A stretch of DNA of 64,000 bases from positions 697,001-761,000 of the forward strand of contig NC_053047.1 in the NCBI RefSeq assembly GCF_003473485.1, in the 5' to 3' direction. This DNA comes from Medicago truncatula (taxonomy: Eukaryota > Streptophyta > Magnoliopsida > Fabales > Fabaceae). The position numbers were made by a program, and so were the translations under genes. The notes beneath the pieces are model-generated. The model worked only from the letters and a program-made list of their open reading frames with translations. It was not told the origin of the DNA and did no database searches. Below are positions 21,193 to 60,334 of this stretch, piece by piece (positions within the stretch are counted from its first letter, which is position 1; each line of letters begins with the position of its first letter).

Positions 21193-22031
21193 CTAGTAGT
21201 TGTCCACCCAGAATTGTTTTTGAAGATTGTCCACTATATTATTGTCAACTTGAAAAGCTTTGGTGAGAACTTCTGAAGAGATTTTTGGATTAGATCCAAA
21301 TACAGCATTAGCAATTGTGATTACACCTGGATTTTGGCTGCTAAGTCCAGCAATAGCAACTGCATTTCCATATCCCACATTCAATTGGAAGTGAATGAGA
21401 CCAATTGGAAACACAAACACATCTCCTTTGTTCAGTACTTTTGTAATGAGACGGTTTTCTGGATTAGAAGTAACAAACCCGACATATAGTGTACCCTCTA
21501 ACACTATAAGTATCTCAGTGGCTCTAGGGTGAGTATGTGGAGGATTTAGTCCCCTTGATGCGAAGTCAATGCGAGCAAGAGAGATACCTAAAGTGTTTAG
21601 TCCTAGTATATCATTAACTGTAACCGGTGTCACTTTTGAACCCAGTGGATTTGATGTGTTTCCTTCTTTTACTGAGAAAAAGAAATCATTTGGTGTAGCA
21701 AGCTTTGGATCCTTGCAAAATTTGCCATTCACAAAAACTGCAAAACAAAATCATTAGATAATTAGATAATATGTTCTGCTTATATATGTATATATCAATG
21801 TTGTCAAACATGAGATCGAACCCGTGAAACTTTTGTATCATAGTTTAATTGGTTCAACAGATTCAACCAAACGAGTAAAAATAAATAAAGAAGTGTTAAA
21901 AAAGTATACATACCACCATTCTTGGTGTCATTGATAGCCACACAAAAGTCCTGTAAAGGGCTGGGATCAAAGGCAAAGGCACAAGATGCTAAAGCTAAGA
22001 AGGCTGTCACAAACAAGATTGAAGTCTTCAT
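21193..22031 (-). CDS. Germin-like protein GLP-a (subfamily 1 type)
   Basis: Two exons, 22031-21914 and 21737-21193, joined across a 176-bp GT-AG intron, give 220 residues. The start is the ATG before KTSILFV; upstream in-frame codons lack an ATG. Residues 1-20 are a signal peptide (cleavage probably after AFA). C30 and C47 form the usual germin disulfide. Germin box 1 (H107, H109, E114) and box 2 (H155) supply the four manganese ligands of a cupin barrel. N66-T-S is a likely N-glycosylation site. Germin-like proteins are extracellular hexamers; some have superoxide dismutase activity, and oxalate oxidase activity should not be assumed. A TATAAATA box lies about 70 bp upstream (near 22097-22105). 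Unlike its paralogs it ends in Tyr rather than Asn. Confidence 0.93.
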
Positions 22032-25742: not shown

Positions 25743-27743
25743 CTAATGGGTAAAAACAGTGTCGTTTCGCCTAGGTGGTCTGTCGGGAATAGATCCTGGC
25801 TTGAATTTGGAAGCTTCATGCCTTGCCAATTCATGTGGAACAGGACTGTTACTCTGAATGAGCATCTGCTTAAGTTCATAAAAGACATCAGTGTCCTGAA
25901 GAGTCAGGAATGTTGTAGCCACACCCGTCTTTCCTGCACGGCCGGTACGCCCAATACGATGGGTGTACATTTCAATATTCCCAGGCATATCATAGTTGAT
26001 AACATGAGCCACATCAGGAATGTCAATACCACGTCCAGCAACATCGGTTGCAACAAGCACATTATATCTCTTGGTCCTAAATCCTTCAAGACTAATTTCC
26101 CTCTGATCCTGTGATTTCCCTCCGTGCAAAGTGGTCACGCGATACCCTTCCAAATTCTTAGCAAGAAAATCAGCGCTCTTCTTGGTGTTGACAAACACAA
26201 TCGCAGTCTTGTCATTAAGCTGATCCAACAATCTGTGAAGGTTATAGTTTTTCTCAGATTCCTTCATCATGATCACATGCTGACTGATTAAGTCAGTTGC
26301 TTTTCCAGCAGTACCTATAGTCACCACAACAGGGTTCCTCAAATACTTTCTAGCAAGCCTCTCCACACCAGGAGGCATGGTTGCACTAAACATATAAGTA
26401 GTCCTATAAATCCTCTTCTCATCAAGCTCCTCATCTTCATTCTCTGGTTTGAGATTACTCGAAGGCATAGCATCCAGCACACCCATGACCTGCGGCTCAA
26501 ACCCCATATCAATCATTCGATCCGCTTCATCAAGAACAACATAATTACACTGATTAAGAACCGCATAGCGACGCTCCAAGCAATCAATCAAACGACCAGG
26601 AGTCGCAATCACAATTTCACAACCCTGTCTTATCTTAAACCCTTGCTCCTCAATAGACTGACCACCGACAATGGAAACAACTTTAATCCCCATATACTGA
26701 GCAAATTTAACGGTCTCATCCTCAATCTGCTGAGCAAGCTCACGAGTCGGAGCCATAACAACAGCATAAGGACCCTCAGCTTCATTCTCCTCACTAATAG
26801 GCGGCAGCCTAGTGATATAACTCAACATAGGCAGCACAAACGCAGCAGTCTTCCCAGAACCCGTCTCAGCAACACCGATAACATCGCGTTGCTGAAGTCC
26901 AAGCGGAATAGAAGCCATCTGAATCGGTGAAGGGGTTTTATAACCAGCCTTCTCCACAGCCTTCAAAATCTCTTGACTCAACTTACTCTCAACCCAACTC
27001 CTAATAGGCCTCGGAATCTTTGAACCCTTATACGAAATATTATAATCTTCCCTAAAAATACGCCAATCCCTCTCCTGCATTTCCTCAAGATTCTTCTCAC
27101 TCCAATGACGATCAACCCTCATATCAAAAGCATCATAAGCATCAGCAGCCTCCTCTTTCCGCCTTTGAGCATCAGCCTCCTCAGGCTTCTCCTCCACACC
27201 ATCCTTCTTCCTAATCTGATCCCTCATCTCTTTCTCCTGCTTTGCCGCAAGCTTCTTCTGTTCACGACGATCCATTCCAGCGATAAACCCTCGGCCAAAA
27301 AGAAGCTGAGCCGTATGAGGGTTTTCATAAAGATCATTCCTATCACGTGAAGTATCTTCAGTATTTTCCCAATCAAATGAAAATCGAAATTTCTCACTAG
27401 GTTTAATAACCCTTTTTTTAGGTTTTTTTGAACCTAGGTATTGTTCCTTAATCGATTCAAGATCCTGCTCACGTTTTCGTTCCGCTAGCTTCTCCGATCG
27501 AGCATGTTCACGAGCTTTATCCTCTTCTTCACGCTCTCTATCGCGGTTTCTTCGTTCCCGATCTCTGTTATCTCTTTCCCTTTCCCTATCACGTTCTCTG
27601 TAACTGCGGCGGTCGGAATCAGAGGGGCGGAGGAGAAGTTCTTTTTTGTGACTGGCGGCGACTTGATTGTGGCGGCGTTCCAGTGCTGCTTGTTCACGCT
27701 GGGCTTTAGTGAGGAAAACTGGTTTGGGGATGGCGGGTTTCAT
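25743..27743 (-). CDS. RH21: DEAD-box RNA helicase 21 (PRP28/DDX23-type)
   Basis: Intronless frame of 666 residues. Residues 1-110 are highly charged, with alternating Arg/Asp/Glu (about 43-80), in place of the RS-like domain of human DDX23. The helicase core has every signature: Q motif GYKTPSPIQ (267-275), motif I AETGSGKT (292-299), Ia PTRELA (332-337), Ib TPGRL (381-385), II DEAD (405-408), III SAT (453-455), IV IVFVNT (515-520), V DVAGRGID (567-574) and [12 protein letters not shown] (595-604). PRP28 unwinds the U1 snRNA/5' splice site pairing so that U6 can replace U1 before spliceosome activation, acting in the nucleus with the U5 snRNP. Length is close to that of plant orthologs (about 700). 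It lies between inverted germin-like copies, to which it is unrelated. No sign of disruption. Confidence 0.96.
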
Positions 27744-43933: not shown

Positions 43934-46900
43934 ATGCTTGTGAACTCTCTCTCACTTCCTTCCAATCTCTTCACAAGGTTCAATTTTTGGTTATCCATTT
44001 TCTTTCTCATTCTATACTTCATTTCAATTTCTTTTCTATAATTTTAATATTTTCATTGTTGTTTTTATTTTTTCTTTTCTGATTTTGCTGTTATTTTTCT
44101 ATATTAGTTTCTCTGCAAGTGATATCAGAACAAATCAAAGATGGCCACCCTTGAAATCATCAAATTCTCTCAGTTTTTCTTCAAAGTCAAGATTTTTATG
44201 TAAAAGCACTCAAAATTCTTCAGGGGTTGGTCCTGATGATGCAGTGATAATTGTGGATCACGGGTCACGTCGAAAAGAGTCCAATCTCATGCTTAGTAAG
44301 AATAGTTTGTCGAAATTAGTTATATGCAATTGGGAATGTTTTAATTTTGATTTTTGAAAAGTTGTCTTGTTTTGAATTTTAGATGAATTTGTGGAGATGT
44401 ATAGACGTAAAACTGGATACCAGATTGTGGAGCCTGCTCATATGGTAATTTTCTTCAATTTGTTCGGTTTTTCTTCGTGTTAGATATACCTCTTTGAATC
44501 GGCTTATTTGAGATTATCAACTAACATAAACACTCGTGAGAACATTCGAGAGAGCTTATGAAAACAACTTATGACATGTCCGTAGACTATTTTCAGCTTA
44601 TTTCCATAAGCTCTTTCGAATAGGTTACAAAAACAACATATAGTTTATATAAAAACAGTTTGACTTTTTTTTAGCTATAGAAATAGCTAATACATAAGCA
44701 CTTAAATACTTATGCTATTTTGTCAAAAAAAATAAAAATACTTATGCTATAGGTGCTTAATTAAGCTGTTTATCCAATCAATGCAAGAATATGATAATTT
44801 TCTTCATTTTGTTAAGTATAGAGAGACAAAATGAAGTTAAAATATGGAATTTGAATGATGATAGATAGATGCTTGAGTCTTGAGTACTGTCTATAAAACA
44901 TATATGATTGCAATTTAGACTGTAACATCAATGTTCTATATCTCCACAATGCAACCACAGTTAAGTTTGCATCAATCAGATTCGTGAATAGGATTTGGTC
45001 CATGACATTATGGTTTTATGTCTTCACCGCGACAAATGTTGAGGCCGCATCAACTGCAATTGACTGCGATTTTCCACAATATCAAAGATTGCAATACACT
45101 GTTATCATGATTTAAAACTGTATCTATATAGCGTTTAGGAAATTAGGAAGGTAGAACCTTTTATGATTAATTTTGCTAGCAAGTGACCCAGTCTGGCATT
45201 ATCGTTGGGTTGTTTGGTGTGAACAAGAAAACATATTTGCCTTAATGAAGAAATAGAGTCAAGTTTCTTAGTCGCACCCTTTCTTTCATTTTTTGATCTT
45301 CAAGCTAGATTTGGCTTTTAGAAACAACAGTAACAGTAACAGAGTTCCTTTGGTGCATTTAGCCTTATCTTTACTTTTGTATTTTATTACAGTTGTAGAG
45401 CCACAGAACACATTCTTTATTTTTTTTACTCTTCATAATATTTGTAAATTTTCAGGAACTAGCAGAACCATCAATTGGAGATGCTTTTCAATCTTGCGTT
45501 CAGCAAGGTGCACACCGTATTATTATCAGTCCCTTTTTCCTCGGTCCCGGAAGACATTGGAGTCAGGTAGATTTGCATATAACTTTGCTCTACCTATTCA
45601 CAAAGTCACACATATGGTTGATCATGTGATTTATTGACAGTGTAAAACGTTTTACACTGAAAAATGTATCAAAATCAAACTCATTGAAAATATCTTAAAA
45701 GCTCAAACTTAATCCTAATAAGGTCATATCATGTGCAGGATATACCTTCCTTGAGTGCAGAAGCAGCAAAGCAACACCCTGGTGTGTCATACATTGTTAC
45801 TGCACCCCTTGGACTCCATGAACTACTTGTGGTATGAATTTTCTCAATTTATTTCATTTCTATATTAATAACTTACCTATCCTGAGTTGAATTTGTTGAA
45901 GCACTTGTTGGAAGTTGTCCTGTTTCCAAATTTCAAGCTTGAGTGCGTTTTTAGCACTTTGATTGTCCATTCTCACTCCTAAAAAGTCGCGTGTCAAAAA
46001 GGTTTTTATTTCAAATTAGTACTTTTTTGAACCAATTGTAGTGTATTAAAGGTCTAGCAGATTCTTTCTTTAGCAGTCTTGATTTTGTCACGACGAGACA
46101 TGAAATTAATCCCTTTGGTTTAGGTTACTCCTTTTAAAATGAATTTTAGCGCTCTCTTTAGGAGTCAGGTTTGTTTGCTTTTGGAATCAAGATTGGTAAT
46201 CTTTCTCAAGGGATAATCAACGAGTATGAGCCTTATCGTAGAGTTCTAATTGTCAAGGACACGACTGAATAAATTAATGGAATGGGGATAACCTAGTGAA
46301 GGTTCACATAGTTTCTTCATTGGAAACATTTCATATGCTTCTTGTTCTCTACTGTCCGTTCTAATTTTTGGGCTAGTCTTAGAATTTGGGTTGGGCTTAA
46401 CCTAACTCACCCCTACTAAACCGGCTTTGTAAGGTGAGAGATGTCTCCTACTTATAAATCCATTTTCAGGACATATTTCATCCAATCTGAAACTCTTAAC
46501 AGTTTGCATTGGCTGGTGTGGAATATGTCAATGTTCACTTTTACACCTCAAATTTGACAATGATTCTTACAATGGGGTTTGAAATGAACTGTATCTGCTA
46601 GTGGAAAGGATACAAGTCCATGGTAGTGTTTTATGCAAAGGCAAATCGAAATAAAATGAATCAGAAATTTTCTTCCACCCATTTAGGAAAATCAAAATTC
46701 TGTTTGTTTCATTTTTTAAAAATATATCAAACATAAAATATGACATTGTATGCGGTTGTGTCCCTTTTTAACACGTTGATCAAACACAATCTAAAATACC
46801 AAATAACGGATCTATTTTGCATCATGTCTGCCTATTTGAACTTGAAACAACCTTGTTGTGTTGCAGGATGTTGTGAATGATAGGATCAATTATTGCTTAA

Positions 46901-46971
46901 AGCATGTAGCTGGAGATGCAGATGAGTGTTCAGTTTGTGCTGGGACTGGGAAGTGCATACTTCATCAATAA
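43934..46971 (+). CDS. SIRB: Sirohydrochlorin ferrochelatase, copy 1
   Basis: Six exons join in frame to 200 residues: 43934-43977, 44108-44295, 44383-44444, 45456-45566, 45739-45831 and 46867-46971, all GT-AG. Residues 1-55 are Ser-rich, nearly free of acidic residues and typical of a plastid transit peptide; exon 1 supplies MLVNSLSLPSNLFT. The mature part is a single-domain CbiX/SirB chelatase: VDHGSRR gives H66, and SPFFLGPGRHW gives H132, the two conserved metal-handling histidines. The C-terminal cysteines C187, C190 and C196 (CSVCAGTGKC) fit the Fe-S-binding tail reported for Arabidopsis SirB. It inserts Fe(II) into sirohydrochlorin to make siroheme for sulfite and nitrite reductases. 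The start is inferred by splicing to the only good upstream ATG. Intron 5 has a segment that recurs at 50.1-50.6 kb. Confidence 0.9.
44500..44782. mobile_element. MITE of the 'GACATGTCCATAAG' family in SIRB intron 3
   Basis: It contains TTATTTGAG near one end, TTATGACATGTCC in the middle and TTAATTAAGCTGTTTATCC at the other end, in the same order as copies at 52018-52263, 57372-57700 and 59709-59977. The ends GGCTTATTTGAG and, reversed, GGATAAACAGC are loosely inverted. Boundaries are approximate. Confidence 0.55.
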
Positions 46972-48123
46972 TTTATGAAACTGCATAGTTTTGAATGCCC
47001 TTCTAGGAGGTTGATGAGGATAACATGAAGCTAAAAACCAAAGGAATGTGTAAATTTATCGAGCTGCAGCTGTTCTGAGGCCATGACTTTAAGAAGCAGA
47101 TCGGTTCTTGTAGATAAACTTTTCTCGGATTGAACTACCAGTTTCATCCCTTAACTTGCGCACCCTATTTCATACACTGTGTAAACGAAAATAATAAGTA
47201 GTTTCTAACGCTTTGTCACACTAGTTCGGTAGTCCTTGGTTATATATAACTAACCGGGCACATTTAATAAAAGATTATGGACTAATAAGATCGACAAACG
47301 TTAAGAGATTACTAATTATTTTTATTTATTTGAGGGGTGAAGTAGGAGAGAAAGTGTTGGTTCTTGAACAAAATTTGTGGCTTAGTCATTTCTCCTGTCT
47401 TTGGAGTTTTTGCAAGAAGGAATAATTTTGTGTATAAAATGTTGGCTATGCACATGAAATTGATTGTTAAGTGAGTGCTCAAAATGTTCTGTTTTGACTG
47501 CTTAAACATATGTAAATTTATTAAGAGTTCTTTTACTTGTAAGGTAATTGTTGAATACTTATCTCATGTAATCTTCTATAAACTAAATGTTAATTTAAAC
47601 TGCAACATAGATGCTTCTGCTAATAAAAATTATCATTTGGAAGTTAACCTTTATGTGCTTCAAATTATCAAAGATTAATTTCTGCAAAGAATATAAGATT
47701 ATAAAATTCTGAAACCGTTCATCGATCTCAACGACAACATCCTATACTGTTAAATTTTTTTTCTCCATTTTATCCTTTTTATATATATATTTTTCCAGAT
47801 CATTTTTTTTAATGCATTGCTATGTATACTTTATGGAATATGCATTTTTGTTTCATTATTTACCTTTTTTATTAGGTTCTGGTTGTTAATTCCAGAGCAC
47901 TGTATGCTTTTGATTCTTGTTTCATTACATACTGTATGCTTTTGATTCTTGTTTATTTCCAATTACTCAGTATGTAGCTGGTCCTTATCCAAATAAATGC
48001 ACAACTAGCTGGCATTTATGCAGGAAGTAGTATTTAAGTAGCCATTTTCTTTGAGATTTTACAATTAAAATTACATTTTCACAAAATTTTGTCAATTGTT
48101 AAGAAACAAGAATTGTGGAAAAG
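46972..48123. other. 3' flank of SIRB copy 1 and spacer
   Basis: About 47160-47350 (TAAGTAGTTTCTAACG...) recurs in the broken middle copy at 50630-50740 and near copy 2 at about 53215. No further gene. Confidence 0.5.
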
Positions 48124-48356
48124 ATGAACAATTTGTTGTATGACACAAAATATGTTAATTTTCAGTTAGTTTTGCTGTTATTTTTATGTATTAGTTTTTC
48201 TGCATGTGAAATAGGAACAAACCAAAGATCAAATTCTCAGTTTTTCTTCAAAGTCTCTATTAAGCACTCAAAGTCAAAACTCTTGGGTTGGTCCTGATGA
48301 TGCAGTGATAATTGTGGATTATGGTTCAAATCGGAATGAAGCCAATCTTATGCTTA
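48124..48356 (+). pseudogene. Broken SIRB fragment (first exon only)
   Basis: The DNA is close to the first exon of SIRB copy 2 and starts with the same gene-E-derived ATG (MNNLLYDTKYVNFQL). A frameshift inside the Ser-rich part leaves the ATG frame ending at KLLGWS, while the other frame carries GPDDAVIIVDYGSNRNEANLML. In that frame the metal-handling His of VDHGS is Tyr. The donor site (CTTA|GTAAG) is preserved, but exons 2-6 are absent downstream; instead 48.4-50.1 kb is unrelated DNA. Host gene remnant. Confidence 0.8.
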
Positions 48357-48835
48357 GTAAGAAGAGATTGATGAGATTATTTATATGAAAAAACGGGCCA
48401 AGGCAATTCGCTAAGTGAATCACCCAAAATTCAAGTTCTTGCAATATTTAATGTTGTAGTAAATTGATTCACTCAACTTGCTTAAATCAGTTAACAAAAA
48501 GAAAACCTATTATACTTTGGTGAATTCATACTTTATTAGTTAAAGAAATCATAAAGATACAATTAATACAGTATATCACTAATTTTAAGTAAAAAAAAAA
48601 TTAAATATTAAACAATTCACACATAATTAATTTTCTCTCATTTTCATGAATTAAATATGAACGTTAGAGTCATATATTTTTAATCACAAACAACAAACTA
48701 ACCACATGCATGAACCACCAAAATATAATACAAAGAGTATACATCCCCGTCATTCTTCATGTATTAAATATGACTCTTAAGTCATGTATGTCATATAAAA
48801 ATGGATAATATATACGTTAAAAATATAAAGTAATT

Positions 48836-48847
48836 TTTTTTTAGGGA
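48836..48847 (-). mobile_element. 12-bp T-rich micro-insert
   Basis: AAAAATATAAAGTAATT (17 bp) occurs at 48819-48835 and 48848-48864, flanking TTTTTTTAGGGA. On the minus strand this reads TCCCTAAAAAAA, a possible retroposon tail. The A/T-rich context makes slippage an alternative. Confidence 0.4.
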
Positions 48848-49039
48848 AAAAATATAAAGTAATTGTAAGTTTAAAATTCTATTACATTTATGTGTTACAT
48901 ATCTGTTATCTATCAATTTATATATATATAAAAAAAGAGGAGAAAATTTTGCAACGTTCTATTATCTTACGGTTAAATTTTAAATTATATTAGCTACCAC
49001 TTTGAAATTAAACAAGGAACATCAACTATGTTAATTATT

Positions 49040-49418
49040 GGCTTAAATATCACTTTGATCCCTTAACTTATTTTAAAAGTTCATATTAGTCCATTAACTC
49101 TAAACCTTTCAATTTGGTCTCTTAACTTATTTTAAATATTACGTAAAAAATATATTTTAAAGGTTTAGTTTGGTCCCCTTTACTATAAAATTGGTCAATT
49201 TGATCCCTTAACTTATGTAAGTTAATACAATTTGGTCCCTCAATAGATGGATACGATAATTTTTATAAATTAAAAGACTAAGTTGCATTAACTTACATAA
49301 GTTAAGACTCAAAATTGAAATTTCAAAATAAGCTAAGGAATCATATTGAACAGTTTTAAAGTTAAAGATTAAACTGAATTTTTAAAATAAGCTGAGGGAG
49401 CAAAATGGTATTTAAAGT
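49040..49418. mobile_element. Mutator-like MITE with 9-bp TSD
   Basis: The left tip GGCTTAAATATCACTTTGAT and the right end, reversed ACTTTAAATACCATTTTG, head arms with 'CCCTTAACTTATTTT' on each side. TTAATTATT flanks at 49031-49039 and 49419-49427 (perfect 9 bp). Same family as 33450-34025. Confidence 0.75.
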
Positions 49419-50094
49419 TTAATTATTTATTTGGTCTCTTACTTATCTTCATCAACTCTTTTGTAGTTTCTTTTTTTCTTCTCTTTATGACTTTTTATAT
49501 CATTCAGTAAATAAAAAAAAAAAATATGAAGCCAAATGATATCCGACTACACACATAACGTTAGCAAATTGCTTTGGCTGCAAATGATGTCTACTTAGTG
49601 TAGTTCCAGACTTTGTACATTTTAAAGCTTAATACGTCTTGAAATCAAGCATCCAAAAAAGCTTAACACGTGTTGAAATCAAGCATCCAAAAGAAGATTC
49701 CTCTTATGTTGAGTATCATTATAAGCGGAACATATACAAGGTCTAGATTTATTCGATTGAAAAATTCATTCTTTCAATATTGTACATCCGTCAAGTTTCA
49801 TAGGGTGGCAAGAAAGTATCAAGAAGTAAGAGTGATGATAAAGGGAATCGTGGCTTGATGCAATTTTTGAATGCATTACGTGCAGTTGGATTGGCAGCTA
49901 TGGTCCACCCAATAATCCCAATCTAAGAAGAAGCGATCAATTGCCCTAGATGAAGTGTACTTAATTCTTGTTAATTAGTTTTTGTGTTAACTATTTAACA
50001 TGTATAGCCGCCTTTTTTCCATGTTACTTAATTTCGATTGCCCATTAATACAGTTCGTTTTTTCTTACTCCTTTGTAATGAATCTAAGTTATGC

Positions 50095-50740
50095 CAAGTT
50101 CTCTTTAGAAATCAAGATTGGTAACATTTCTCAAGGGATAGGCCACAAGCATGAGCCTTATCGTAGAGTTCGATTGTGTCAAGGACATGACTGAATTTAC
50201 TAACAGAATGGGGATAAACTAGCAAAGGGTCACATAGTTTCTTCATTGGAAGCATTTCATATGCTGCTTGCACTCTACCATTCACTTTTTGGGGATAATC
50301 TTAGAATTTAGCTGGACTTAATTTACCTCTATAACCGGCTTGTAAGGTGAGAGATGACATATTCCATCCAATGTAAAACTCTTATCAGTTGGCACCGGTG
50401 GAATATGTCAATGTTCACTTTTGCACCTCAAGTTTGACAATGATTCTACGATGGGATTAAAAATGAACTGTATGTGAATGTGGAAAGGATACAAATCTAT
50501 GACTGTTTGATGCAAAGGCAAAACGTAATGAAATGAATCAGAATTTTTTTACTTCCACCCCTTTTAGTAAAATCAAGATTCTGTCCAGTTTCATTTTATT
50601 TTTTATTTTTTTTATTTCCTACTTCGTTTCCATGTAAATGGAAATATAAGTAGTTTCTAACGTTTTGTCACACCGGTCCTGTTAGTCCTTGGTTGTATAT
50701 TTATTTGACTAATGAGACGGACGGAAACGTTGGAGAGAAA
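50095..50740 (+). pseudogene. Duplicated SIRB intron 5 and 3' flank
   Basis: Words such as ATCAAGATTGGTAA, GAGCCTTATCGTAGAGTT and GGAATATGTCAATGTTCACT occur in the same order as in intron 5 of copy 1 (46180-46700). Then, without an exon 6, the match jumps to the copy 1 3' flank (AAGTAGTTTCTAACG, 47200). Together with 48124-48356 this marks a middle SIRB copy that has lost exons 2-6. Confidence 0.7.
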
Positions 50741-51326
50741 GTAGGAGAGATTGTAAGATCATAACGAAATTAGCGGTTTACTAATTTCTCTGATTTTTGA
50801 AATTTTTGCAAGAAGATTAATATATCCAATGTTGGATCGCTGCTTACTCTAAGTAGTTAAATCTTGCGTTGTGGTTTTTGTTTGATGGTTAAATTTTTGT
50901 TGCCTCATTCGGCATTTGATTGGTTATGCCCGCGTAGGGTTTCTTGCTTCTTTTTGAGCGAGTGTTGTGGAGACACCGGAAGAAGTTAAAGGGCGTCCAA
51001 AGTGGGTCGAAGACTTCTAAGAGCTATGCTACCAATTGGTTCATATTGTTTTCATTAGAGACTGTAATTCATTTTTACTTCGATTGTACTACTCATTTTA
51101 AACATGGGATGAGTAGCTCAATTGATTTAAACCAAGGGTTAAGAAGTTACTCTCTTATGTAAAAACAAAATATACTCTGCATGAAGCTGATATTTGTGGT
51201 CCATGTCCAACTGCACAAAAAATAGTTGGCATTTAAATACCAATTTTCTTTGAGATTTTACAATTTATTAAAATTACATCTTCACAAAATTTTGTCAATT
51301 GGTAAGAAACAAGAATTGAGGAAAAG

Positions 51327-53130
51327 ATGAAGAATTTGTTGTGTCACACAAAATATGTTAATTTTCAGTTAGTTTTGCTGTTATCTTTATGTACTAGATT
51401 TTCTGCATGTGAAATAAGAACAAATCAAAGATCAAATTCTCTCAGTTTTTCTTCAAAGTCACTATTAAGCACTCAAAACTCTTCTGGGGTTGGTCCTGGT
51501 GATGCAGTGATAATTGTGGATCATGGTTCAAATCGGAAAGAAGCCAACCTCATGCTTAGTAAGAATTGTTTGTTGAAATTAGTTATATGAAATTGAGAAT
51601 GATTTAATTTTGATGTTTAAAATGTTGTCTTGTTTTGAATTTCAGGTAAATTTGTGGAGATGTTTAGAAACAAAACTGGATACAAGATTGTGGAGCCTGC
51701 TCATATGGTAATTTTTCTTCAATCCTTTGTTTTTTTTCAATGTTAGGCCTCTGATGATAGAAAGATGTTTGAGTTTTGGTAATACCTATAATTCATAAAA
51801 CATCTGCAACTGCGATTTGGACTGTAACGTCAAGGTTTTTATGTCTCGACAACGCGGCCGCGATTGAGTCTGTATCAGTCAAGGTCCTTATGTCTTCTGC
51901 AATCCGACCATAATTGAGGTCGATGAGCCATATTTAACTGTACTTTTCCACAATATATCAAGGATTGTAGTATAACCTTTGTCGTGATTTAAAACCTTAT
52001 CTATATAACTTTTAGGAAATTGGTTTATTTGAGCTTATCTACTACCATAAGCACTTATAGAACTCTTTGATAGAGCTGATGGAAATAACTTATGACATGT
52101 CCACAAGTTGTTTTCAGCATATTTCTATAAGTTTTCTAGGATAGCTTATATTAAAACAATTTGACTTTATGTTAACTTTTATATGATGGACATAATTTAT
52201 ATATAAGCACTTATATAATAAACTTTATGTTATAAAAGCTTAATTAAGTTGTTTATCGAAACAGAAGTCTGAGTCTGGCATTATCTTATGATTATCAGCA
52301 TTATCCTTGGGCTTCATAATATTTATAAATATTTTCAGGAACTAGCAAAACCATCAATTGCAGATGCTTTTCAATCTTGTGTTCAGCAAGGTGCACACCG
52401 CATTATTATCAGTCCCTTTTTCCTCGCAACCGGGAAGCATTTTAATGAGGTAGATGTCCATATAACTGCAGTTTAGATTTTTTACATTGTCAAATAATCA
52501 TAACCGTTAGATCATTAAAAACGTCCGACTTTAATCGTAACTACTTCTAAAGTCACACGTATGGTTGGTTGTGATTTGTTACGGTGTATCAAAATCAATC
52601 TCGTTGAAAATGTCTCAAATGCTCAAACTTAATCCTAATTCGGCAAGATTATGTGCAGGATATTCCTGCCTTGAGTGCAGAGGCAGCAAAGCAACACCCT
52701 GGTGTGTCATACCTTATTACTGCACCCCTTGGACTCCATGTGCTACTTGTGGTATGAAGTCTTTTATTAATTTATTTCATTTTTACATTAACTCACCTAT
52801 TCAGAGACGAATTAGTGCTTGTTTGGTAACACAGTGAGTTTGTCGAAATCACAGTGAGCCACCATAACATAATTATGAACTCCTACGCTGTTGTGTCCCT
52901 TTTTAACATGTCGACCAAACACGCTCTAAAGTACCGAATAACCGATGTATTTTACATTGTTTCTTTCATTTTGAACTTGAAACAATCTTGTTGTGTTGCA
53001 GGATATTGTGAATGATAGGATTAATGGTTGCTTAAAGCATGGAGCTGGTGATGCAGAAGAGTGTTCAGTTTGTGATGGGATTGGAAAATGCATTCTCAAG
53101 CAAGAAGCTGGAAGCCAAAGGAATGTTTAA
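51327..53130 (+). CDS. SIRB: Sirohydrochlorin ferrochelatase, copy 2 (chimeric start)
   Basis: Five exons join in frame to 208 residues: 51327-51558, 51646-51707, 52339-52449, 52659-52751 and 53002-53130, GT-AG throughout. The chelatase core is intact: VDHGSNRKE with H66 and SPFFLATGKH with the second histidine, then CSVCDGIGKC near the end. The C-terminus is 8 residues longer than copy 1 (KQEAGSQRNV). The start differs: copy 1's first exon is replaced by DNA matching the beginning of the gene at 56376, and the frame reads through what was SIRB intron 1. Residues 11-22 (VNFQLVLLLSLC) are therefore hydrophobic and the N-terminus no longer looks like copy 1's transit peptide. Whether the protein still enters plastids is unclear. 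If expressed, the enzyme reaction should be the same as copy 1. Confidence 0.82.
52018..52263. mobile_element. MITE of the 'GACATGTCCATAAG' family in SIRB copy 2
   Basis: Same internal words and position (third long intron) as 44500-44782 in copy 1, so this MITE was present before the gene was duplicated. Boundaries approximate. Confidence 0.5.
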
Positions 53131-53795
53131 ATTCAGCTGCAAAAGTTCTGAATCCATAACTTCAAGAAGCAGATTGCTTTTCAAGTAGACAAAAATAATA
53201 AGTTGATCGTTTTTTTAAGTAAACGAAAATAATAAGTAGTCTGACGTTTTGGTTCGAACTCCGATCACGGCCTTCGACCTAACAGTTTCAGCTAAATTAA
53301 ATCGCACGACGAATCTGTATATTTAGTGATTTTGATATGTATCCATTAATAAAGTGGATTAATTTTGACTAAATTTCGGCTAACGAATCATTATATTTAG
53401 ATATGTATTTTTCGTGTGTCCTAACAACCGAGTTAAGCTCACGAAAACTAATAAAGTGGGTTAATTTATGCACGAGGTCCAGAGTTCAATCTTTGTTATA
53501 AATTAATTTACAAATAATATTTGTCTATATATATATTATTTTATTTTATTTTTTACAATTTTGATCTTTATTCATACACAGAGCCATTGAGTTGAGACAT
53601 GTAAAATCACATAGAAAAGATCCAAAATTAATTACAGCAATGAAGGTAGAATCTCACTGGGGTCCAAAGCAAAACAAAAATCAAAGCAAGAGGAATTAGG
53701 TGAATTTTTTACATCAAAAGAAATGAGAAGAAAAATTTGAGAAAGAAAGAATTTTAATTATTCAAGATCTACATAAATTTCAATGAAGAATATGT
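53131..53795. other. 3' flank of SIRB copy 2
   Basis: About 53200-53245 repeats the ACGAAAATAATAAGTAGT word of the copy 1 3' flank. No gene is seen. Confidence 0.45.
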
Positions 53796-53958
53796 TTAGG
53801 AGCCCCAAGGATAACATTCATTGGACGTCGCATTTAGTTCTTTATTTATTTTCCAATGACCTTCTGTTTTGCAACTTGGATAATCGCGTCCTCCAACGTA
53901 AATGTCAAAGTAATGAAATTCATTAGTCCATGAAAATTTACAAAAGTATTGTGTTCAT
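53796..53958 (-). pseudogene. S1-like self-incompatibility homolog (SPH) fragment
   Basis: The minus strand reads FCKFSWTNEFHYFDIYVGG, then RDYPSCKTEGHWKIN and ends YPWGS-stop. This follows the C-terminal half of plant S1/SPH proteins: a Cys before the F-W stretch, the FDIY motif, an R-D pair, Cys, and the W-x-I near the end. The signal peptide and N-terminal half are missing. Going upstream, the frame hits a stop and then the hAT-like repeat that begins near 53955. SPH proteins are small secreted Cys-rich proteins; this piece cannot encode one. It was probably cut by the repeat. Confidence 0.7.
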
Positions 53959-55003
53959 AGTTTTAAAAATCTGGTCATCGATTCGGCAAAGTCATTGGAT
54001 CACTGAGTCATTGGTCGAACCATTGAGTAACTGGTTGAACTGCATGACTGAATCGGATTAAACCGAATGACTCGATCATATAACTTGGTCTCAATAAAAA
54101 CACATATAATTAAACCAGATTGAAGAAGTAGATGTATTGTCATATTTATTAATGAATATGATAACTTATATTTTTTATATTATTCAATTGACATGACTAC
54201 ACACAATTAGATACGTGTATAAAATATTTATACACCGTTACAATACGCTAATTAAATTGAAATAAAAATAGCCGAGGCCACCACTATATTAAAAAAAACC
54301 AACATTCATTTCAATACAAATAAAAAAGTCTTTTTTAGAGGAAATAAAAAGGGCCTTGTATCCAGAAGTTCTAGCTCAACTGGCAAAATGCCGAAATTGT
54401 TAGGCCGGATGCCATGATCGGGGTTCGAACCCCGGTACCTCCACTTGTGTGTGAGTTTATAATGGCTTTGCCATTTCGTCTATCTACCAAAAAAAAAAAA
54501 AAAAAAGGGCCTTGTTAAAAAAAAATAAAATAAAAAAATTAATGAGTGAATATAAAAGGCAAAGCAAGTGAGAAAATTTAAAACCCATTTCACCTCTCTC
54601 TTCCTCCCATCTCATATGCTTATCTCTCTAATATTTTGGATTAAGTATTAAATTTATTATGTTATCCAACAAATTCACACACACAATGCTACTTTGTCTT
54701 TTCCCTTATTCGGATCTACTTGAGACCATCTTCTCTTTTCTCAATTTTTTTTAACAAAAAAATAAAAGTGATGCTTTGACCCGGTTTGGTTCACCAAACC
54801 GGCCTAGTCACCGGTTTAAATGCATGTCTGATCCATCATGCAGCTCGAACCGGTCATGCCACCGGTTTACGGTCGGACCGGTTCACAATGACATAAATGA
54901 ACACATGTGCAATTAGACATAGGTCTATGAGAGTTCAACTCCTCTCACAAGGATTTCATCTTTGTGAAATAATTAAAACCAGATTTTGAACCTTGCTAGA
55001 GGT
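53955..55003. mobile_element. hAT-like TIR repeat interrupted by a SINE
   Basis: The ends TAGTTTTAAAAATCTGG and, reversed, TAGCAAGGTTCAAAATCTGG are inverted. Subterminal DNA on both sides is rich in ACCGGTT / GGTCATC-type words typical of legume hAT MITEs. No clean target-site duplication. A SINE (54360-54501) sits inside. No coding capacity. Confidence 0.45.
54360..54501 (+). mobile_element. tRNA-derived SINE with 14-bp TSD
   Basis: The head has a box A TAGCTCAACTGG (54372-54383) and a perfect box B GGTTCGAACCCC (54422-54433). The tail is a poly-A of about 17. AAAAAGGGCCTTGT flanks it at 54346-54359 and 54502-54515. A tRNA gene is ruled out because the acceptor stem does not close. Confidence 0.88.
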
Positions 55004-56137
55004 TGTTAATTGCATAATGTTATGTAAAGTTGATATATGAATCCTATCAGCTTTAAAAAACTGTTCTTTAAGGTCCTCTCATACATCAATGGCATTTTCA
55101 TGAAAAACCATGGTTTGTACTATGGATTCAGAAATGAAATTGATAAACCAAGAGCAAATAAGGTGATTACACCTCGATTCAAATCAAACTGATCGGGAAT
55201 TGGAGTGGATTCACCGACAAATGCAAGCTTGTTCTTATCAACAATGGAATACTAAGATCAAACTAACTAACTCGATAACTTATTATACAAGTTATCTCCG
55301 TAAACTAAGCTAAGTAGTTGCATTCTCCTCTGGTGCGGTCAAGTACTCGTTTTAAGAGTAGAACGAATATTCATTTTACCCGTTAAAGAAATGCAAAATT
55401 CAATTTAATTTTTAAGAAAAAATGAAACCAACTTTTAGAAGGAAAAAAAATATTAATAATTAAAAAGAAAAAAAATAAAGGATTTGACTTTCACAATAAT
55501 TAAATGATTAAAAAGGGATTGTCAAAAAAATAAATTAAAAGGGACAATATGACATAACATAAAAAAAAGTCAATAAATGATTTCTTCTTTAACCAATAAT
55601 GTGTGCTAGACTAAATGCTATTACATATACAAAGTGATTATATTTATACACTTGCTTATCACAATTTTTGTGACAACAATTCTTTCTATCTTTACTTATC
55701 GGTTAAAAACAATACAAGGAAAAAAAGAAAAAAGAGGATAAGAATTTAAGTATAAAATATAGTTGGTAAAAAATTATCATAAAATAGTTGTACAAATATC
55801 ATTTCTTCAATATTGTATTCCATCACCATCGCTATTAGTTAAGCGTGATTTGACAATTAATAGTCCTATAATGGATGGATAACCTTATAGAAAAAGGTGA
55901 AGACAATGATGTTCATTCAATTTGATCGGATATGTACTTCTCATTCGATTATTAAATATCATGTCATATTTTTATATTAATTTATTTTAAAATAAACATA
56001 AATATTAAACAAATTTAATCTGACTAATTAACCAAACTCCAATGTACCTACACATTTACCTTAAGAAAATGTGTGTTTGGATAAGATTATAACTATAATT
56101 TCAAATTTACAACGATTTTAAATATATTAAATTCAAA
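55004..56137. other. Gene-less stretch
   Basis: A+T-rich DNA between the hAT-like repeat and gene E. No gene or clear repeat except the SINE that begins near 56130. Confidence 0.45.
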
Positions 56138-56247
56138 TAGCTCAGTTAGTAGGACAATGCATTATTATATATGGGATTGAGGTTCGAACTCCAGACATCT
56201 TGTAAGCTGAATTCTAGCCAACATGCTTCTTGAAAAAAAAAAAAAAA
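56138..56247 (+). mobile_element. tRNA-derived SINE upstream of gene E
   Basis: Box A TAGCTCAGTTAGT at 56138 and box B GGTTCGAACTCC at 56181-56192, then a poly-A run of 15 ending at 56247. Possible target-site duplication AAATTC(C)AA on both sides, imperfect. It lies about 130 bp upstream of the gene E start. Confidence 0.7.
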
Positions 56248-56375
56248 TTCCAATTAGAGACAAGAAAGAAAATACTTCGTTATTTCTCTTTTGTCACCCA
56301 TAGAGACAAATTCCAATTTTCTCTTTGAGAAAAGTGTCATTTGTGAAGAAAGAAAAATACTTGACTTGAAGAAAG

Positions 56376-59300
56376 ATGAAGAATTTGTTAATGGGTCACA
56401 CAAAATTTCTTAATCTCTTCAAATTTTCATCTTTCCCTTCAACTTCTCGTTTCAACAACTTCACTTCCACTAGTAAGCAGTACCATTCTTCTTCTTCTTC
56501 TTCTTCTTCTTCTTCAATATTGAAAAATTATCATTAAAACTTCATTTTTTTCTTATGATAATTTTTTTCTTCATTTTTGATTCAGGTTTGAAACTGAAAG
56601 TTAAAATCTTGAAACTTTCACAATCAAAACGTGGTTTCATTTTTCAACAACCTCTTAATCTTACTTCTAACTACCTCCGTAATTTCCGCTATTCTGGTAA
56701 GATTTTAACTAATTCTGTTAGTTTTTGTTTTTTAATTAGTTTTAATCATTATTTTTAATATTGGTTTTGGTTATGTAAGATTTTAGAATAAATGGGTTTG
56801 TTTGGGTAATTAATGGGTCTTTCGTCCCTGCAAATATAGGTCATTTGAATTTTCATTCCTGAAGTTACTAATCAGATGTAATTAGGACCAAAAGTCAAAT
56901 GATTAATACTTGAAGGGGCAGATTGGAAGGATTAGTAACTTCATGGACGAAAATTCAAATGACCTATATTTGCAGGGACGAAAGACATATTTAAGCCAAT
57001 GTTTTATTAAGCATGTAATTGCTACGTAGCACCTACACGTTTAATGGTAGTGTCCGACACAACACCGACACATGTGATTATATTCGATTATGCCATTGTG
57101 TTGACGTGTCTGTATCAATATTGTGTCTAGCACCTACACGTTTAATGGTAGTGTCCGACACAACACCGACACATGTGATTATATTCGATTATGCCATTGT
57201 GTTGACGTGTCTGTATCAATATTGTGTCTAGTGCCCGTGTTTGTGTTAGTGATTCATTGCGTATTTGTGTGTCTAGTGCCCGTGTTTGTGTTAATGATTC
57301 ATTGCGTATTTGCAATGTGAATTATGATAAGTGTCAAATTTGTATTCATTTAATCCCGATCAACAATGTGGGATTCGTTTGGATTAACTTATTTGAGCTT
57401 ATCTATTGAGATAAACATTTGTGAGATTGTCTGATAAAGTTTATGAAAACAGCTTATGCATGCCCTAAGTTGTTTTCAGCTTATTTCTATAAGTTCTCCA
57501 AGATAATGTGGAATTGGTTTGGATTGATATACTTGGGTTTATCTACTGACTTAAACACTTGTATGATTGTTGATAGAGTTTATGAAAACAACTTATGACG
57601 TGTCCATAAACTGTTTTTAGCTTATTTCTGCAAGTTTTGCAAGATAACTTATGAAATCAGCTTATAGGAAAACGGTTTTGGCTTTATTTAACTTTTCCAA
57701 TCCGTGCTAAAGAAGATTTAGTTTCATAAGTTCTGTGTAGGGAGACTGCCAATACTATTGATTATAAATTGTACAATAGGAAACTTGTAACAACTTGTAT
57801 CAATCAATTAGCTAGAGATGATTTTTTATACAAGCTTAGTTTTGTGGTTAAGCCGCGGCAGGGTTGTTAATTTTACAAGTTTCTGTTGTGTAGCAATGCG
57901 ACATGGTGATATGACAGAATAGACAACAACATTTTTTTTTTTCATTTTTAATTATTGTTGAAATCCTGGATCATCTAAGTATTTGGTTGTAGCTTTTGCG
58001 CTGAGTTAAGCTCATTCGATTTTTAAATTTAAACCGGTGACAGAACCTATATAAAACTTTGATATTAGGCCACCCGTAGATGATGCTGAGGGTTGCAAAC
58101 TTAATGGCTCTAAATGTCCAACCCTATGCATAAATAGTCAGTGTTGAAATCCGATATCAACTAGGAGCCTAACCAAAGTACTCCTTGTAGATACTTTGAT
58201 AATCCTTACTGTTGATCTAGATCTTTGAAACTGAGAAGAAAGTAAAAAAAAGGTTATACTTCTGTGATTAAAAGTGAAAATTGAAAATGTTTTCATCAAA
58301 TCAAACACGTTGTAGAATTTTATTGTGTTTGAAGTTGAAGTTAACACATCCTTTTGATTACTTTATCTGTAGTAATAACATTTGTTATGCCATATTGGGT
58401 TGTCTGGTACATATTCCAGGCATTGGATGCATCTTAGGCGTGTCGGTTGCAACTGCATCAACTATAGCTTATGCCACGAATGGTGAGTTGCATATTTGAT
58501 TGGTATTATGTACTTTAGCTTTTCTGCCATGTTGTTAAATAGCGGAAATAGTGGGCCTTGCAACGCTATCACATAGCGAAGTTTTAGGAAATCTCTATTG
58601 ACCTATTGTTCAGTCATACGCTATATAGTACAAAATATTGTCAAATAGCAGCTATAGTGGCACTATATCATTTTGCGTAGCGGAATTTGAACAAATTTTT
58701 ATTTTCCGTGATCCACAGTTGACAACCCTGTTTTCTGTTAATTTTGCTGGAATTTGTCCTCCCAACCTGCATTTCTCTTAATAACTTGACCGTTTTTATT
58801 TCCAACAATTAGCTGAAGATGCTTTGGTGGATGATCATCGTCGTAGCGATTCATTAAACTTGGACTACCCATTGACGACATTACTTGTAAAAATTTGGCT
58901 GGAAAGATACATGGAATATCTCTGGAAATTGGTTAGGAGATTTTGGCTGCCAATTTTTTTCGTTGCGACAGTGCTTACAAACTTGGATTACCCATTTACA
59001 ATATTATTCATCAAACTTACCTTATTCCTTCTCAGCACAAATCCCAATCCATTTTCTGTCTATGTTTTTGTTGATCAGGTCAGATACTGCAGTAATAATA
59101 ATTTCACAAAGTGTATACTACACAGCATACTTGAATTTATTTGTTGCCATTTTGTTCAACTGTCATAATATTTTTCATTTGGTAACTTCACGTGATTTTG
59201 TTTTACTTGACAATGTGTTGATTTACAAATTCTTATATTGCAGTTGTGCCGACAATCTATATGCAAAGATACCAAGTTTTTTGACAGAAAGGTGCATCCT

Positions 59301-60334
59301 CGTCTCTTTTAATTGATTTTGTTGTAGCATGGAAATCTATATCGGGTTTTTTCTCTCATGTTAGTATGTTACACAGATATCTAATATTATTTTATGATTT
59401 ACTTATAGAAGGAATGGATCTCTTTCGCTCTTTCTCTAGCACTTAATTACATGATTTTTTTTTTTTGAGGGATGATTTTATTATGTTTAGATACCAATGT
59501 TTTTATATATTTGCGTCGTAATGAAGACAATTTGTGGAACATATAGTTTAATATCGCATAAATGGTCCAATTTCATGCCCAACTATATAATAATGCCCAA
59601 CTATATAATACCATTACTCTCTGCATATTACATTACACTTAGCTGTACCCGATACTTCCCAATGTTGGCAGAGAGTACATTGTTTGATAATCTGCCACAT
59701 TACTATGCTTGTTTAGGGCTTGTTTGTATTGACTTATTTGAGATTATCTACTGTCATGAACATTTGTGAGAAAGTGTGAGAGAGCTTGTGGAAACAACTT
59801 ATGACATGTTCATAAGTTATTTTCAGCATATATTTCTATAAGCTCTCCAGGATAGTTAGTAAAAATGGTTGACTTTATTTTATCTTTTGTTATAGAAAAA
59901 ATAGCTTATACATAAGCATTTATATGATAAACGCTTCTGCTACAGGCACGTAATTAAATTGTTTATCCAAAACATGGCCCAGTTATATGATTTCTGTTTG
60001 CAAAGTATTGTCCCACTATAGATTTCATTAAGTGGTCTCGAGAGGCAACATTAGATATTCGGGTAAAATCATGTGTGCTTCAATATATTGGATATGCTGA
60101 CTGTGAATTTGTTATGTGTATTTTAACAATAAAATTGAGGGAACTTGGTAAAGAACTTTTATATACTAAGAATTTTACTGATAATGGCGATTCTTCTTTT
60201 ATCTGCAGTCATTTTATGCCAGCAAAGTTGAAGTACAGGACTATAAGCTTCTTTGCCTGGCTGATGTTGAAGTAAGAGATCACAAGTTCACCTTGGTTGG
60301 AATTCTTGGTACATGGTGGACTCTACCACATTAA
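56376..60334 (+). CDS. Unrecognised plant membrane protein (gene E)
   Basis: Six exons, all GT-AG and phase-consistent, give 236 residues: 56376-56472, 56586-56696, 58420-58482, 58813-59078, 59244-59291 and 60209-60334. Residues 1-45 are basic and Ser/Phe-rich (FKFSSFPSTSRF), like an organellar presequence. GIGCILGVSVATASTIAYA (about 70-88) is a first hydrophobic segment. Exon 4 has two related hydrophobic units, LDYPLTTLLVKIWL and LDYPFTILFIKLTLF, with WLPIFFVATVL between, so it probably crosses a membrane two or three times. The C-terminal part has VEVQDYKLLCLADVEVRDHKF and ends GTWWTLPH. I have a vague sense of a conserved plant family but no name or function to give. Introns carry a (TTC)10, MITEs and tandem repeats. 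Its 5' end was copied to SIRB copies 2 and 3. Confidence 0.78.
56486..56515 (+). repeat. (TTC)10 microsatellite in gene E intron 1
   Basis: About ten uninterrupted TTC units just after the exon 1 donor site. Confidence 0.9.
56816..56998. mobile_element. MITE in gene E intron 2
   Basis: Arms GTCTTTCGTCCCTGCAAATA and the reverse of the right end are complementary over about 80 bp, and the right side ends ATTTAAGCC as in the GGCTTAAAT family. The left tip has lost the last few bases of this motif. Confidence 0.6.
57027..57318 (+). repeat. Two-tier tandem repeat in gene E intron 2
   Basis: A 101-bp unit starting TAGCACCTACACG is present twice (57027-57127, 57128-57228), identical by eye. It is followed at once by a 45-bp unit starting TAGTGCCCGTG, also twice (57229-57273, 57274-57318), with a few differences. 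Both begin with TAG..CC, so the second array may have grown from the same seed. Confidence 0.85.
57372..57700. mobile_element. MITE family member, partly tandem, in gene E intron 2
   Basis: Contains two diverged head-to-tail starts of the family (TTTGGATTAACTTATTTGAG and TTTGGATTGATATACTTGG) about 145 bp apart, each followed by a TTATGAAAAC-A-CTTATG segment. Related to 44500-44782. Confidence 0.5.
58532..58733. mobile_element. MITE-like repeat in gene E intron 3
   Basis: The left end TTGTTAAATAGCGG and the reverse of the right end GGTTGTCAACTGTGG are weakly inverted, and 'AAATAGC..CTATAGTGGCACTATA' recurs inside. Typical of legume short repeats. No coding capacity; limits approximate. Confidence 0.4.
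59709..59977. mobile_element. MITE family member in gene E intron 5
   Basis: Carries, in order, TTATTTGAGATTATCTACTG, AACTTATGACATGTTC, ATAAGCATTTATATGATAAA and AATTAAATTGTTTATCC, as in 44500-44782 and 52018-52263. Best preserved of the four copies here. Confidence 0.6.

Follow-up and report, generated by a model that had tools for sequence, protein, structure and literature searches.

When tandem duplications ignore gene borders, the 5′ end of a gene can become fused with the 3′ end of the gene beside it. In Drosophila yakuba, 76 chimeras from such duplications are described in 15 lines, and raised expression of the duplicated part is reported for 24 of the 76 (Rogers et al. 2017, PMC5460883). 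For plants, the accounts of the MAF2/MAF3 fusion in Arabidopsis and of PEP1 of Arabis alpina describe tandem rearrangements that led to a chimeric gene or to a second promoter region with its first exon (PMC3527215), and a genome-wide survey in Oryza, where fusion is likewise a source of new plant genes, reports 310 gene fusions (PMC9199173). The gene described here, the second of two SIRB copies in tandem (c1 and c2), is a real and well-resolved instance of this known process and a clean new example of it. As far as the respective reports describe them, the D. yakuba chimeras vary within a population, whereas c2 is seen in one assembly, is known from sequence, is old (dS of about 0.24-0.34 from c1) and has already been duplicated again. 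The MAF2/MAF3 and PEP1 cases, by their description, join paralogues or duplicate a gene's own first exon; in c2, two unrelated neighbours are joined and intron sequence is read as codons. The Arabidopsis SIRB (At1g50170) is reported to be an Fe2S2 enzyme whose knockout is seedling-lethal (PMC6006212). Compared with that description, c1 and c2 have the same CbiX domain and four C-terminal cysteines, whereas c2 carries another N-terminus and substitutions at conserved sites. Among the listed literature holding Medicago together with sirohydrochlorin, no paper is titled on this locus, and one names a soybean gene. Within 17 kb lie the two parents, the chimera and a sister copy that failed, and the breakpoint, the intron read as codons, the new leader, the second duplication and the loss of one copy can all be read in one place.

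The window, a stretch of 64,000 nucleotides, belongs to contig 6 of a plant genome of 430 Mb, and the four units of interest follow each other in the order c1, B (the broken copy), c2 and gene E, all on the + strand. The upstream parent, c1 (43934..46971), consists of six exons with GT..AG sites (43934-43977, 44108-44295, 44383-44444, 45456-45566, 45739-45831 and 46867-46971) and encodes 200 aa that match the CbiX Pfam model with 108.2 bits. The chimeric c2 (51327..53130) has five exons, also with GT..AG sites (51327-51558, 51646-51707, 52339-52449, 52659-52751 and 53002-53130), and its product of 208 aa reaches 103.2 bits with the same model, above the curated cut-off of 22. The downstream parent, gene E (56376..60334, its stop codon ending at 60334), was modelled with GT..AG sites and the exons 56376-56472, 56586-56696, 58420-58482, 58813-59078, 59244-59291 and 60209-60334; its protein of 236 aa matched no Pfam family at an E-value of 1. 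Both parents are thus still present, with intact open frames. With the best candidates scored, a CbiX search of the genome returned exons of c1 and c2 only, and a protein search with c1 returned this locus only (the c1 and c2 exons and a fragment of B). Gene E was likewise found at this locus only, with no paralogue among the best-scored candidates of the genome protein search.

The start of c2 resembles the start of gene E, as the first-pass annotation had noticed. In pairwise alignment, c2 51293-51362 and E 56335-56414 reach a score of 63 with the two start codons in register and one 3-bp in-frame gap within the codons, and self-BLAST recovers the core of this match (51313-51362 with 56363-56414, 83% over 53 columns, E-value 1.9e-7). 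The start of B also matches gene E (48090-48159 with 56335-56414, 71% over 80 columns, E-value 5.9e-5 or 1.7e-5 depending on the query), less closely than c2 does, and c1 is unlike E there, with a score of only 22 that falls inside the control range. The score of 63 lies far above the controls, being reached by none of 3000 random windows (maximum 35) and none of 3000 dinucleotide shuffles (maximum 37). The strict pattern GATGAASAATTTGTTN{0,6}GNNACACAAAAT occurs at two places in the 430-Mb genome, in c2 and in E, and its reversed control at none; B is too divergent to fit it. A chance match of c2 with E was ruled out by the 6000 controls together with this genome-wide pattern, and a dispersed repeat common to both was rejected given the two genomic places. 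DNA searches with each of the 5′ ends found no further copy, at a sensitivity at which one of them missed E itself, so that copies as divergent as E could escape.

The similarity to E stops at 51362 (E 56414) and that to SIRB starts at 51373 (c1 44083), that is, 25 bp before the AG acceptor of c1 intron 1, which ends at 44107. The new start of c2 is composed of 12 codons derived from E exon 1 (51327..51362, from the alignment with E), a junction of 10 bp that belongs to neither parent (51363..51372) and the tail of the former SIRB intron 1 (51373..51397), which is now coding and whose homologue, 44083..44107, forms the last 25 bp of the intron in c1. From there the frame continues into SIRB exon 2, the phase of c1 being preserved, and no stop interrupts it between 51327 and 51558 or further along the five exons. 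The switch inside intron 1 about 25 bp before the old acceptor, the reading-through of the new frame and the change from intron to exon had all been proposed beforehand and agree with these limits; the passage from E to SIRB is seen as well, with the correction that it is not direct, the 10 bases of neither parent lying in between. Extra bases that stem from neither side are common at end-joined breaks.

The broken copy carries the same junction between E and SIRB. Its 5′ part (48032..48390, + strand) holds the E-like 5′ end, the former intron stretch and SIRB exon 2 with a frameshift, and shares 92.6% identity with c2 across 353 aligned bases. Repeat-rich sequence (48391..50103) stands in place of its middle, with at least 52 genome matches including itself, mainly to 48435-49045 (best 40 of 483 candidates scored). 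The tail (50104..50815, + strand) retains relics of c1 intron 5 (46178-46715) and of the c1 3′ flank (47180-47419). The intron 5 portion, found at 50104-50597, is missing from c2, where the homologous intron measures 250 bp against about 1 kb in c1. Because the junction is common to B and c2, the fusion is older than their split, and the wording of the first-pass annotation, by which c2 itself had acquired the new start, has to be moved back to their common ancestor. The similarity between the two begins abruptly at 48032 and 51231, which we read as the probable left edge of the second duplication.

Taken as a whole, these features make it likely that c2 is a chimeric gene produced by a single tandem duplication whose breakpoints lay in intron 1 of SIRB and exon 1 of E. 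The segment from SIRB intron 1 (near 44083, the presumed breakpoint) to E exon 1 (about 56414) would have been duplicated head to tail, creating a new joint of the E 5′ end with the last five SIRB exons, flanked by an intact SIRB on its upstream side and an intact E on its downstream side. Left without its donor, the intron 1 acceptor would no longer have been used and the 25-bp tail would have become coding, its frame fitting by luck. B and c2 would have arisen by a later tandem duplication; B was then presumably broken by deletion and repeat insertion, whereas c2 retained its frame, and its product is probably still a protein like sirohydrochlorin ferrochelatase. A duplication with those breakpoints predicts the order SIRB, E::SIRB chimera, E, which is exactly the order found: the 5′ end of the chimera comes from the downstream parent, its 3′ end from the upstream parent, and it lies between them on the same strand. 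Since this geometry fits a single tandem duplication, promoter capture and intron-to-exon conversion, proposed earlier as a pair, need not be separate steps.

Beyond the stop codon, the 3′ end and flank of c2 (53101..53251, + strand) are collinear with c1 47024-47215 through two anchors (E-values 1.8e-13 and 5.8e-7), besides a third match that spans the last exon. Had the whole segment been duplicated, a second copy of the c1 downstream region would be expected upstream of E, and this was absent: 47250-48031 had no second copy at an E-value of 1e-10 and no match upstream of E. As 53252-53955 has no match to the c1 flank either (for 53255-53955 there is no copy among the matches listed), the tandem duplication needs an extra deletion or insertion. 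Repeats fill much of 53956-56250 upstream of E, namely a 145-bp element, a longer element surrounding it and further repeated sequence; the 145-bp element has at least 37 copies at 91-98% identity (best 40 of 2313 candidates scored). By eye, the latter (54359-54506) looks tRNA-like and is nested in an older repeat.

The divergence of the parts was compared as well. E and c2 differ at 5 of 49 positions, and the introns of c1 against c2/B at 132 of 852, of which 69 come from the B tail (p=0.41); with the c1-c2 introns alone (63/364) the comparison gives p=0.30, and E-c2 does not differ from B-c2 (p=0.56). These figures are compatible with one event, and are weak as a date given that E-c2 comprises 49 bases only. 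The c2-B divergence (26/353) is lower than that of the introns of c1 against c2/B (p=1e-4) and of c1-c2 introns (63/364, p=6e-5), a contrast that sets a partly coding stretch against introns. On a common stretch of 218 columns, the differences amount to 23 for B-c2, 25 for c1-c2 and 34 for c1-B, none of the contrasts being significant (p=0.88 and 0.15). As these counts do not resolve the order of events, that order rests on the junction common to B and c2.

Above the ATG, the non-coding similarity between c2 and E can be relied on for about 35-40 bp and is weak from there to 70-80 bp. Within the c2 leader (51246..51326, + strand), 51293-51326 is E-like in the main alignment and 51246-51292 weakly so. 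The upstream piece CCAATTTTCT..TTTGAGA, which had been noted as shared with E, is weaker than the match around the ATG: with 80 bp of upstream sequence it retains some weight (controls as high in 6/1679 cases for c2 and 7/1670 for B), and with 300 bp it fades (70/1695 and 114/1693). Similarity of promoter length was sought over 300 bp and none was found. The E-derived piece is, by its sequence, best described as a captured leader with first codons, for which promoter capture is only a candidate, and c2 may be transcribed from E-derived signals and presumably uses the E-derived start codon. An element at 56137..56247, with one listed second copy elsewhere (77%), ends some 130 bp upstream of the start codon of E and may hide further shared upstream sequence. 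The leader of c2 also contains a donor-like GGTAAGAA at 51302, which, together with the old SIRB acceptor, would bound an intron of 96 nt. Splicing between the two would remove the c2 start codon, and the protein begun at the next in-frame ATG, as read from the c2 protein, would lack the first metal ligand. By eye, GGTAAGAA is absent from the aligned place in both E and B.

To evaluate whether c2 is under constraint, it was compared with c1 over 176 codons, giving a dN of 0.095 and a dS of 0.24 (NG86) or 0.34 (YN00). The resulting ratio of 0.39 (bootstrap 0.21-0.71) is no proof of constraint on c2, because the value is common to c1. Neutral evolution was simulated with 4000 runs per setting, based on four of five intron alignments (one, 28.8% divergent, was left out). 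The frame stayed intact in 0.001 of the runs at a branch distance of 0.08, which is close to what the introns suggest, and in 0.008 of those at 0.05, the value of 0.001 leaning on the frameshift rate, as all 16 pooled frameshifting gaps come from two of the four alignments; counting stops alone, the fractions rise to 0.167 and 0.318, respectively. The metal ligands reported for Bacillus subtilis SirB are His10, Glu43 and His76 (PMC11301274), and c2 keeps His66, Glu99 and His132, equated with them by counting by hand on the alignments. Against the Bacillus-type SirB chain 6jv6, the two copies reach similar best-domain scores (c1 55.2 bits, c2 54.1). The C-terminal Cys176, 187, 190 and 196, which we take to be the holders of the Fe-S cluster in the plant SIRB form, are present in both. 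For the substitutions, 20 of 26 loci from the search for bacterial homologues served as outgroups (L040 was dropped for a stop, and L044-L048 were left out). Given that these had first been fetched with words from c1, such words were then masked, and the masked figures are the ones relied on. Before masking, 17 vs 4 sites favour c1 (p=0.007), with 8/8 conserved sites; after masking, 12 vs 5 of 25 scored sites do (p=0.14), and c2 departs at 6/6 of the sites where the two copies differ and bacterial homologues show at least 80% conservation, these counts resting on 10-20 homologues per site.

Two other origins have to be weighed against the tandem duplication. A short patch of E, comprising the leader and first codons, might have been copied, through ectopic gene conversion or template-switch repair, into a SIRB that had been duplicated before. 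No more than about 50-70 bp are securely common to c2 and E, a longer duplicated unit is untraceable between c1 and E, and the 10-bp junction would suit any end joining; yet such a copy does not predict that the fusion sits between its parents, it requires at least one more event, and the upstream limit of the similarity may stem from insertions near E. We regard a patch of this kind as unlikely. In the reverse direction, the c2 form would be ancestral, with E and c1 each having gained new 5′ ends later. With bacterial outgroups only, the polarity of the first exon leaves room for this reading, but it requires two captures as well as the turning of a coding stretch into a pyrimidine-rich intron end with an acceptor; moreover, it is c1 and not c2 that keeps the residue of the bacterial homologues at the 6/6 conserved sites, where the search bias was masked. 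We therefore consider it very improbable. The 51302 site, the dependence of the neutral test on the frameshift rate and the 218-column comparison lower the odds of the tandem duplication and raise those of the patch and of a loss of function.

Such a loss concerns the fate of c2 and is compatible with an origin by tandem duplication. The chimera would be real but functionless, being either a decaying copy or one that loses its start codon by splicing at 51302. The altered conserved residues (e.g., R69N, E102K, P129T and W133F), the broken sister copy B, the missing first transit-peptide exon and the donor-like site at 51302 all speak for it. On the other hand, the 208-codon frame with GT..AG sites persists, the metal ligands are kept, and the neutral chance of an intact frame is about 0.001, though 0.167 when counting stops only; the pairwise dN/dS of 0.39 (bootstrap 0.21-0.71) points the same way, with the reserve that it is common to c1. 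We hold a functionless c2 to be possible but doubtful, and our reading is rather that of a copy selected for during much of its life, whose function is now relaxed or altered.

A different fate would follow if the fusion had re-addressed the siroheme enzyme. The first 24 residues of c2, 12 of them from E and the others from the junction and former intron, would take the place of the initial part of the plastid transit peptide. Judged by composition, the N-terminus of c2 still seems like a transit peptide, with 15 Ser/Thr, 6 Lys/Arg and 1 acidic residue in the first 55, against 19, 6 and 1 in c1, whereas that of E (12, 10 and 0) looks mitochondrial. The stretch FQLVLLLSLCT, encoded by the junction and former intron codons, has a mean hydropathy of 2.14 over 11 residues (0.80 in c1 and 0.75 in E) and is absent as a hydrophobic stretch from both parents. 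Because the N-terminus gained this stretch, import of c2 into the plastid is uncertain. An N-terminus in which the E-derived codons and this stretch together resemble a signal peptide or an anchor might place c2 outside the plastid stroma, with the frame selected and the residues near the active site altered; we deem this improbable. For plants, organelle targeting is reported to change faster once a gene has been duplicated (PMC7086175). The reading frame of c2 survived and may yield a protein with a new sorting signal, and c2 offers, in what is likely a model legume, a test of whether a first-exon swap changed the location of a plastid enzyme, one that is essential in Arabidopsis.

Some further observations concern the SIRB family and the rest of the window. 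The core of the plant SIRB shares 52-60% identity with SirB-like proteins from Planctomycetes and from actinobacteria of the Thermoleophilia type (L023-L043), and several of these have, by eye, similar C-terminal cysteines. As its words came from the plant protein, the scan is not a fair survey; the likeness may hint at where the plant Fe-S form came from. A cluster of open frames at 21193-41796 reads, by eye, as germin-like (cupin-type); four of them, at 21193, 29459, 31553 and 36489, are nearly identical and lie in both orientations. Across the genome, at least 159 matches to late nodulins (NCR-type) were found, which makes the plant probably a legume that has nodule-specific cysteine-rich peptides. 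Finally, an uninterrupted open frame of 666 aa on the - strand (25743-27743) reads, by eye, as a DEAD-box RNA helicase.
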